Assembly: GCF_001570405.1 (NCBI RefSeq)
Contig: NZ_BBYM01000015.1
Location: forward strand, 104,274-168,273
Reading direction: 5' to 3'
DNA: 64,000 nt
Source: Microtetraspora niveoalba
GTDB taxonomy: Bacteria; Actinomycetota; Actinomycetes; Streptosporangiales; Streptosporangiaceae
Position numbers and translations under genes: made by a program. Below, piece by piece: positions 25,021 through 26,376 of this stretch. Under the pieces are notes generated by a model. It had not been told where the DNA came from. It worked only from the letters and a program-made list of their open reading frames with translations, and made no database searches. Position 1 is the stretch's first letter. Every line of letters starts with the position of its first letter.

Positions 25021-25036
25021 TCGAACCCGTGTTCGC
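25021..25036. promoter_or_regulatory. SOS (LexA) box 1
   Basis: TCGAACCCGTGTTCGC matches the actinobacterial LexA consensus TCGAAC-N4-GTTCGA at 11 of 12 fixed positions. It lies 9 bp upstream of the -35 hexamer of the promoter at 25045-25073. Confidence 0.75.
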
Positions 25037-25044
25037 CATGATGC

Positions 25045-25073
25045 TTGACAGCGCCCCTGGTCGAATTTATGTT
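25045..25073 (+). promoter_or_regulatory. SOS-regulated promoter
   Basis: A perfect TTGACA (25045-25050) and TATGTT (25068-25073) are separated by exactly 17 bp. The -10 is embedded in the second LexA box, so LexA would block RNA polymerase directly. The next gene downstream on this strand is the HEPN-type gene at 25289. Confidence 0.75.
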
Positions 25074-25076
25074 CGA
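25061..25076. promoter_or_regulatory. SOS (LexA) box 2 overlapping the -10
   Basis: TCGAATTTATGTTCGA matches TCGAAC-N4-GTTCGA at 11 of 12 fixed positions and covers the -10 hexamer. Its centre is 40 bp from that of box 1, about four helical turns. Confidence 0.8.
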
Positions 25077-25080
25077 GGCG

Positions 25081-25206
25081 GTGGGTGTGAGACTCGCGGC
25101 TCACGCCCACCCCGTTGGATGCCGTGCCTTCGTCGTCGGCGGAGACGAGCGCGGTGCGGTCCACGGCGTGGGCCGGACGGGGAGAGGGGAAGCTCCTCGT
25201 CCGGCC
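25081..25206 (+). ncRNA. Structured leader or small RNA after the SOS promoter
   Basis: Starting at the expected transcription start, GTGGGTGTGAG (25081-25091) pairs with CTCACGCCCAC (25100-25110), one G-U in 11 pairs. Further on GGCCGGACG (25171-25179) pairs with CGTCCGGCC (25198-25206), with an inner GGAG/CTCC extension. The 5' UTR to the HEPN gene would be about 210 nt, long for this genome. Whether it is a leader or a separate SOS-induced RNA cannot be decided from sequence. Confidence 0.35.
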
Positions 25207-25288
25207 GCCGTGACGAATTGTCGGTGCGGTCTGCAAAGGTGATCTCACCGGCGAGCACCGCCGGAAGCCACGACTCGAGGAGGCGGGC

Positions 25289-25726
25289 ATGACTGGACAG
25301 GTCGATGGCCGCGGGAACGGGCCCAAGGTCCCGCAGGCGGCTCTGGCGCATCTCGCGGACGCCCGTGCGTGCCTGGCGGACGCCCTGGGCGCCTCCACCC
25401 CGGCGGACAGGTACGTGTCGGCCCATCTCGCGGCGCTCAAGGCGGCGGCGGCCGTGCTCGCCGCCCGCCCGCGTCCGATGGACGGCCGGCGGCGACGGCT
25501 GCGCAGCGCGTGGGAGTTGCTGCCCGAGGCCGCGCCGGGGCTGGCGGACTGGGCGGCCTTCTTCGCGGTGAGCGCCACCAAGCGCGCGGCGGCGGAGGCC
25601 GGGATGACCCGCGCGGTCGGTCAGCGGGACGCCGATGAGCTCATCGCCGAGGCGGACAGGTTCGTCGGCGAGGTCGAGGCCCTTCTCGGCGTGCCGGGCC
25701 AGTCGGCCCTCCCCATGGCGGGATGA
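25289..25726 (+). CDS. SAV_6107-type HEPN-domain protein
   Basis: A 145-residue all-helical protein resembling the actinobacterial SAV_6107-type HEPN family, judged from memory. Seen in the sequence: LAHLADARACLADALGASTPADRYVSAHLAALKAAAAVLA helices, an RPRPMDGRRRRLRSAWELL basic segment and a WAAFFAVSATKRAAAEAG helix. GGAGG at 25278-25282 supports the ATG. In several actinobacteria I recall such genes near translesion polymerase genes; none is here, but two SOS boxes precede it, which independently links it to DNA damage. Biochemical role unknown. Confidence 0.7.
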   Translation: MTGQVDGRGNGPKVPQAALAHLADARACLADALGASTPADRYVSAHLAALKAAAAVLAARPRPMDGRRRRLRSAWELLPEAAPGLADWAAFFAVSATKRAAAEAGMTRAVGQRDADELIAEADRFVGEVEALLGVPGQSALPMAG

Positions 25727-25881: not shown

Positions 25882-26376
25882 TCAGAAGGACTCCACGGCC
25901 CGGCGGGCCTCCGCGTCGAGCACGCCCCAACTGATGAACTCCTCGGTCAGCTCGACAGGCGACTTGTCATAGATGACGGCAAGCGAACGCAGGTCCTCCT
26001 GGCGGATCGACAGCACCTTGCCGTTGTAGTCACCACGCTGGCTCTGGATCGTCGCGGCGTACCGGGCGAGCGGGCCCGCCTTGTCCTTGGGAAGCTGCGA
26101 CAACCGCTCCAGGTCGATGACAAGCTTCGGCGCGGGCGCCAGCGGGCTCGGAGCGGCACCACCGGGAAGCAGCTCAGACACCGGAACACCGTAGAACTCG
26201 GCAAGCTCGGCCAGCTTCTGCACGGTCACCGCGCGGTCGCCGCGCTCATAAGAACCGACCACGACGGCCTTCCACCGGCCACGGGACTTCTCTTCTACCC
26301 CGTGCAGGGAGAGCCCCTGCTGGGTGCGGATCGCGCGCAGTCGCGCGCCGAGCGACTTGGCGTAGTCAGACGGCAT
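25882..26376 (-). CDS. bldD: Developmental master regulator BldD
   Basis: A 164-residue BldD. The N-terminal HTH_3 domain (LGARLRAIRTQQGLSLHGVEEKSRGRWKAVVVGSYERGDRAVTVQKLAELAEFYGVP) binds DNA. The C-terminal domain carries the c-di-GMP signature RGD-X8-RQED (QRGDYNGKVLSIRQEDLRS), equal to the RGD-X8-RQDD of Streptomyces except one Asp-to-Glu change. In Streptomyces a c-di-GMP tetramer dimerises BldD to repress sporulation genes. It lies beside and divergent from pyrR, the same placement as in Streptomyces. Near-identity to the family gives high certainty. Confidence 0.97.
   Translation of the reverse strand: MPSDYAKSLGARLRAIRTQQGLSLHGVEEKSRGRWKAVVVGSYERGDRAVTVQKLAELAEFYGVPVSELLPGGAAPSPLAPAPKLVIDLERLSQLPKDKAGPLARYAATIQSQRGDYNGKVLSIRQEDLRSLAVIYDKSPVELTEEFISWGVLDAEARRAVESF

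Follow-up and report, generated by a model that had tools for sequence, protein, structure and literature searches.

A promoter of the SOS type in Microtetraspora niveoalba probably drives a small RNA that is induced by DNA damage and has a conserved hairpin, H2, as its core, with the HEPN gene that follows as a second damage gene under a promoter of its own in this lineage. The window, which is the whole stretch of DNA that was analyzed, spans 64,000 nucleotides of an 8.47-Mb genome assembled in 98 contigs. In the mechanism proposed here, the upstream promoter, P1, would be shut by LexA at two boxes and would open when RecA triggers the cleavage of LexA. The predicted product is a structured small RNA of ∼130 nt, with hairpin H1 at the 5′ end and H2, which presents the loop AGGGGAAG, near the 3′ end. 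The RNA would most likely act in trans through this exposed and invariant loop, either by pairing with other RNAs or by protein binding, and would give the SOS response of actinobacteria a small-RNA arm. An optional second damage gene would be HEPN_SAV_6107, reachable by read-through from P1 and, in this lineage, from its own PafBC-type promoter, P2.

As judged from sequence, the locus fits a LexA-regulated small RNA in combining an SOS-box promoter, a conserved structure, and the lack of a conserved ORF (ORFs compared in nine loci). An SOS-induced small RNA in the leader was one of the possibilities raised in the original prediction for this DNA, and it appears to be the best supported part, given the covarying hairpins, the conserved loops, and the 17 HEPN-less genomes that keep the LexA box and H2.

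LexA boxes and layout of the locus

The unit is encoded on the forward strand behind an L,D-transpeptidase gene. LexA box 1, TCGAACCCGTGTTCGC, occupies positions 25021–25036, and LexA box 2, TCGAATTTATGTTCGA, occupies positions 25061–25076 and overlaps the −10 element of P1. Direct reading of the sequence places P1 at 25045–25073, with TTGACA at 25045–25050, a 17-nt spacer, and TATGTT at 25068–25073; when the leaders are aligned, their consensus also contains CTTGACA and TATGTT. Downstream of the HEPN gene lies a convergent bldD-like regulator gene (25882–26376, reverse strand, PF21179), which serves as a synteny anchor outside the unit, and beyond it a phosphoribosyltransferase gene that we take to be pyrR.

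The claim that two near-perfect LexA boxes bracket TTGACA-N17-TATGTT, the second lying over the −10, is confirmed. Both boxes differ at a single position from the actinobacterial consensus TCGAAC-N4-GTTCGA; for Streptomyces venezuelae, the LexA consensus is given as tCGAAC-N4-GNNCGa (PMC9380542). The host genome contains a lexA gene and 45 one-mismatch LexA sites but 0 perfect ones, and the sole other pair of one-mismatch sites <100 nt apart lies just upstream of lexA (G000 C47:34855–34926). Matches to E. coli-type LexA boxes number 26 versus 28 in the control, and this box type was rejected. Among 43 close loci, consisting of the window and 42 named relatives, a pair of boxes 35–45 nt apart (∼40 nt in the window) with ≤2 mismatches each is found in 42, compared with 0/43 for a reversed-pattern control. 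The one locus that fails, L062, has three mismatches in its upper box. Box 2 takes the form TCGAAT(T/C)TATGTTCGA in 41 of the 42 named loci and reads TCGAAACTATGTTCGA in the remaining one, L065, where the boxes sit farther up, at −536 and −495. With an SOS box over the promoter and its conservation in relatives, P1 has the sequence features of a LexA regulon promoter and is predicted to be bound by LexA.

The association extends beyond the family of the window. A box with ≤1 mismatch lies inside 1 kb upstream of the HEPN gene in 37 of 41 loci from other families (33 of the boxes perfect, control 0), so that in much of the class PF18726 is a gene with a LexA box.

Covariation and spread of the hairpins

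H1 (25080–25111) starts at the predicted +1 of P1 and consists of 12 bp closed by the loop ACUCGCGG (25092–25099). H2 (25171–25206), which would form both the core and the 3′ terminus of the small RNA, has a 14-bp stem and carries its loop at 25185–25192; each of the two stems contains one G-U pair. Both hairpins had been predicted, and both are present, although their sizes had been given as 11 bp for H1 and 9+4 bp for H2. The putative small RNA would cover 25080–25207 of the forward strand (∼128 nt), with both ends estimated from P1, H1, H2, and the HEPN-less loci. Folding of 25080–25210 yields −84.7 kcal/mol (z −4.6), a value matched by 0/200 shuffles.

Alignment of the leader across relatives, which had been suggested as a way to find covarying stems, reveals covariation in both hairpins. 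For H1 (21 loci), 92.6% of the cells are paired and 7 of 9 pairs undergo compensatory change; 0/500 shuffles reach the observed values on four of five measures, and the count of pair types is ordinary (98/500). For H2, 94.8% of the cells are paired and 10 of 14 pairs show compensatory change, with 0/500 shuffles on all five measures, in 26 rows that were picked for diversity out of hairpins that already pair, a selection that counts against the preferred reading. The least variable parts of the hairpins are their loops, ACUCGCGG being nearly constant in H1 and WGGGGAAG, closed by a G-C pair, in H2.

The distribution of H2 is broad in the window's own family and patchy elsewhere. By a strict test, all 43 close loci carry H2, as do 77 of the 87 distinct HEPN loci from this family together with one sister family. 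In other families, just 11 of 41 HEPN loci pass the same test, which counts against the small-RNA reading, and several of the other-family loci without H2 have the LexA box immediately before the gene. A model of H2 (R1), built solely from HEPN-linked loci, matches one place in the host genome and 80/120 relatives at E ≤ 0.05, and 34/296 genomes of the class at E ≤ 0.001. The absence of a U-tract behind H2 in nine loci (1–6 T per 20 nt) also counts against a small RNA, and termination at H2 is thus a guess. A further point against this reading is that hairpins lacking a LexA box, at L181 and in genomes of family f7, carry the H2 loop as well.

These box-free hairpins have settings of their own. 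In two f7 genomes of 1.0–1.7 Mb (L174 and L175; G080, G107), a hairpin with loop AGGGGAAG is followed by TTTT near an ORF that is presumably sigma-factor-like, and R1 also matches the f7 genomes G124, G140, and G169. L181 (G119 C15:172953–172994) is a pair of hairpins with loops GUGGGGAAGC and UCUUCCC, located between two ORFs that we assume to be nrdR-like and nrdJ-like; the stretch scanned there contains no LexA box with ≤1 mismatch.

Several other identities for the conserved structure were considered and rejected. Rfam 15 yields 0 matches at the gathering score in the window, in a set of 20 loci, and in a set of 14 loci; the hits to known RNA families are of the miRNA type only and all fall under the gathering score. 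A repeated genomic element is at odds with the single exact 17-mer and the single model match in the host genome. The GC-rich reading frames of the leader are open, yet all 83 stretches of protein similarity among nine HEPN-less loci touch H2 or bldD, and an 87-aa frame in the window leader has no Pfam match. An antisense RNA to bldD is not a general feature, since many loci have bldD ∼2 kb off or on the opposite side.

In other families, the H2 loop is accompanied by a complementary loop. Ten loci from seven families (f9, f10, f12, f13, f24, f30, f39) contain CUUCCCC or CUUCCUC 28–75 nt behind the H2 loop; the sequence is complementary to GGGGAAG and, in the loci inspected, belongs to the loop of a second hairpin. 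This partner loop is present in 10 of the 11 H2-loop loci outside the window's order and lies in front of H2 in 0/10. In the exception, L019 (f22), the stem below the H2 loop is interrupted and the partner loop is absent. In the window's family, 0/77 strict-H2 loci contain the partner loop; L107, with an altered H2 loop, does carry it. A tentative interpretation, which we regard as possible rather than probable, is that the SOS response of actinobacteria has an RNA arm that is ancient and independent of Hfq: a LexA-repressed hairpin RNA would pair after DNA damage with other RNAs, loop to loop, through its invariant WGGGGAAG, and the partner loop elsewhere would be a built-in lid or kissing partner. 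Under such loop-loop pairing, the missing lid in the window's family would leave the H2 loop free for targets.

Genomes without the HEPN gene and competing explanations

The putative RNA is retained where its neighbor gene is missing. A PF18726 match is absent from 25 of 120 relatives, 16 of which are of the same family, and from eight further same-family genomes (two with an R1 match and six without). Of these 24 same-family genomes, 17 keep a LexA box and H2 beside bldD (L165–L173, with R1 matches at E 3.4e-5 or better, L218, L219, and L222–L227). Their LexA boxes are perfect in 13 cases and have one mismatch in four, H2 follows 25–103 nt behind the end of the box, and in all 17 the bldD gene ends 156–250 nt beyond the point where H2 begins. 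A pattern search for a promoter of the form TTGACN-N15-19-T(T/A)(A/T)ACT succeeds in 7/9 and 5/6 of the HEPN-less loci searched. The H2 loop is invariant in 17/17 loci, and 96.9% of the cells in the stem pair, with compensatory change in 7 of 16 pairs and shuffles reaching the observed values in 0/500 on four measures and 2/500 on the fifth.

Some of the details weigh against the small-RNA reading. Covariation is weaker in the first nine HEPN-less rows alone, with compensatory change in 3/16 pairs and between 6 and 31 shuffles in 500 reaching the observed values. H1 is inconstant, as its loop core ACTCG occurs between the box and H2 in 2/17 loci and the shorter CTCG in 7/17, and so H2, not H1, would be the core of the RNA. 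In the remaining seven genomes (G020, G021, G032, G039, G044, G070, G144), no match to R1 improves on E 0.0134; five of the seven are in 790–960 contigs, and the weak match in G144 (L228), the one inspected among them, has no LexA box. In favor of the reading, a tree of MTHFR (46 rows) requires HEPN to have come or gone a minimum of three times, perhaps as a single gain plus two losses; that the tree represents one gene and contains some long branches weighs against it.

The main rival explanation denies the hairpins any function of their own: they would form a structured 5′ UTR, or an attenuator, in the HEPN mRNA and act as a 5′ stabilizer, as a conditional terminator, or by sequestering the ribosome-binding site (RBS). 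The close spacing of H2 and the HEPN start in some loci (L102, loop at −48) is in keeping with a cis role, as is the pairing of the RBS bases 25279–25283 with 25127–25131 when the complete leader is folded at minimum energy. However, such a leader leaves the HEPN-less genomes unexplained, where the LexA box, H2, its invariant loop, and compensatory pairs are all kept, and HEPN genes directly behind a LexA box without H2 also exist (L150, L153). We consider this explanation unlikely. The earlier view of the 210 nt before the HEPN gene as simply a leader is not supported either, as the stretch contains a second promoter motif, and the box and H2 are kept without the gene.

Alternatively, H2 may be a plain terminator that keeps transcription from P1 out of bldD or HEPN, the SOS promoter being a relic in HEPN-less genomes. 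In the alignment of nine HEPN-less loci, H2 is indeed the last conserved element ahead of the convergent bldD, and in the two inspected f7 genomes a hairpin with the same loop is followed by TTTT. Against this stand the missing U-tract, the 8-nt loop, which a terminator does not require and which is unchanged in all 17 HEPN-less loci, and the LexA boxes of these 17 loci, since 13 perfect ones would not be expected of a relic promoter; the explanation is improbable. Least credible is a central role for the HEPN protein as a damage-induced ribonuclease or toxin with an incidental RNA or an RNA antitoxin, for which the upstream LexA boxes in other families, the invariant R41-x4-H46, and a weak PADLOC match speak, and against which stand the survey entry on the RNase motif discussed below and the fact that the RNA outlives the gene, unexpected for an antitoxin.

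The HEPN gene, its putative second promoter, and related systems

The HEPN-like gene predicted downstream of the hairpins is identified as PF18726, HEPN_SAV_6107 (25289–25726, forward strand, 145 aa), with a score of 121.6 bits against a cut-off of 27.2 over residues 32–130. Its RBS, GAGGAGG, is read directly at 25277–25283, and the nearest named relatives of the protein come from four Microtetraspora species (88–91% identity). Residues R41-Y-x2-A-H46 are invariant in 31/31 HEPN_SAV_6107 sequences (L102 left out), and the PADLOC candidate PDC-M05B is matched weakly (E 9.8e-4). In the HEPN survey, where the family is called HEPN-M, the table entry for SAV_6107 is ‘No’, taken here to mean that the RNase motif is not conserved, and the same table gives no gene context for HEPN-M (PMC3710099). 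The window gene is a member of this family. HEPN ribonucleases are recognized by a conserved R-x4-6-H active site in the HEPN fold, to which R41 and H46 may correspond. A role of the HEPN protein as an effector RNase is not supported, with the survey entry speaking against it and the invariant R41-x4-H46 for it. In contrast to the contextless table entry, the gene is found here as a LexA-box gene, often together with DUF6504, across families of the class.

In many other-family loci (L145, L148, L144, L184, and others), a DUF6504 gene (PF20114) lies between the LexA box and HEPN, and DUF6504 therefore also looks like an SOS gene. The shared LexA boxes would link two uncharacterized families, PF18726 HEPN and DUF6504, to DNA damage throughout the class. 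The statement that no translesion polymerase gene is nearby holds within the window, and both PF00817 matches of the host genome are on other contigs, but it does not extend to some other families, in which a DinB-type polymerase gene lies convergent behind HEPN. This gene is found ∼0.7–4.9 kb behind the HEPN start in L021, L025/L147, L148, and L152, and behind H2 in L182.

Between H2 and the HEPN gene, the leader alignment displays the motif TTGTCGGTG-N8-xAnnnT, which in the window reads TTGTCGGTG-N8-AAAGGT (P2, 25218–25240, forward strand). The RecA-NDp/PafBC motif is given as tTGTCRgtg-8nt-TannnT (PMC5656591), and P2 fits it apart from the −10, whose first base is A or G instead of T. The 9-mer TTGTCRGTG lies ≤130 nt from the start of the HEPN match in 42/43 close loci, with A2 and T6 of the −10 exactly spaced in 42/42, and recurs in 6/8600 shuffles. 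The exception is L065, where the 9-mer lies at −376 and the match starts inside the gene. In loci whose HEPN match opens with the start codon, P2 keeps a nearly constant distance of 71–78 nt to the gene, while its spacing from the H2 loop varies between 30 and 91 nt. Elsewhere, the 9-mer occurs in 5/44 other distinct loci (last 260 nt), nearly all of the same family, and L204, from another family, has the full motif with the −10 TACATT. Damage induction of the HEPN gene, as originally proposed, is thus upheld by motif, through the LexA boxes of other families and through this PafBC-like element that had been overlooked; PafBC would bind at P2. Two loci of family f20 (L146, L220) carry HEPN without a LexA box (best candidates with 2–3 mismatches) and with TTGTCAGTG upstream. 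The gene may have shifted to PafBC control in this family.

IstR-2 of E. coli is encoded beside the toxin gene tisB. The expression of this small RNA is described as inhibited by LexA and switched on by DNA damage (PMC2527527, PMC3009722), which makes IstR-2 the nearest working parallel to the RNA proposed here. Unlike IstR-2, the present locus has an actinobacterial promoter and LexA box and a HEPN gene downstream, and the RNA is kept when HEPN is lost; the present RNA was tested against Rfam, which gave no match. Mycobacterial recA is reported to be served by two promoters, one of the PafBC and one of the LexA kind (PMC5656591, PMC8223512), and mycobacterial genes that combine an SOS box with RecA-NDp have been described (PMC8223512). 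The present locus resembles mycobacterial recA in having two predicted damage promoters before one gene, one of the LexA type and one similar to RecA-NDp with 8-nt spacing, and differs in the conserved RNA between the promoters and in the first −10 base of P2.

The 6C RNA (RF01066), with an approximately two-fold rise after mitomycin C in Corynebacterium glutamicum as cited in PMC6789036, is likewise an actinobacterial hairpin RNA linked to DNA damage. The window contains no 6C match at the gathering score, and a separate 6C gene lies on contig C5. As a partner of the H2 loop, 6C was rejected, as its gene lacks CTTCC and CCTTC, co-folding gains ∼1 kcal/mol, and no complementarity is seen. No Hfq homologue is reported to have been found by sequence in this group of bacteria (PMC6789036). 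ChvR of Caulobacter, an Hfq-independent RNA of 84 nt, is induced by mitomycin C and pairs via stem-loops (PMC6237742). Unlike the locus described here, ChvR is under ChvI-ChvG control, and no SOS box was found for it (PMC6237742).

An earlier computer prediction may include some member of this RNA among the 113 candidate loci with LexA boxes listed in a 2008 scan (PMC2527527). No earlier report of the H2 RNA was recognized among the titles and opening abstract lines of literature on SOS/LexA small RNAs, HEPN, and DUF6504. The published accounts of the actinobacterial SOS response considered here center on protein genes under LexA and PafBC. The maintenance of the putative RNA by many relatives after loss of the gene points to an unrecognized RNA branch of the bacterial SOS response. 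If true, a LexA-controlled RNA that outlasts its neighbor gene would add a post-transcriptional layer to damage control in antibiotic producers.
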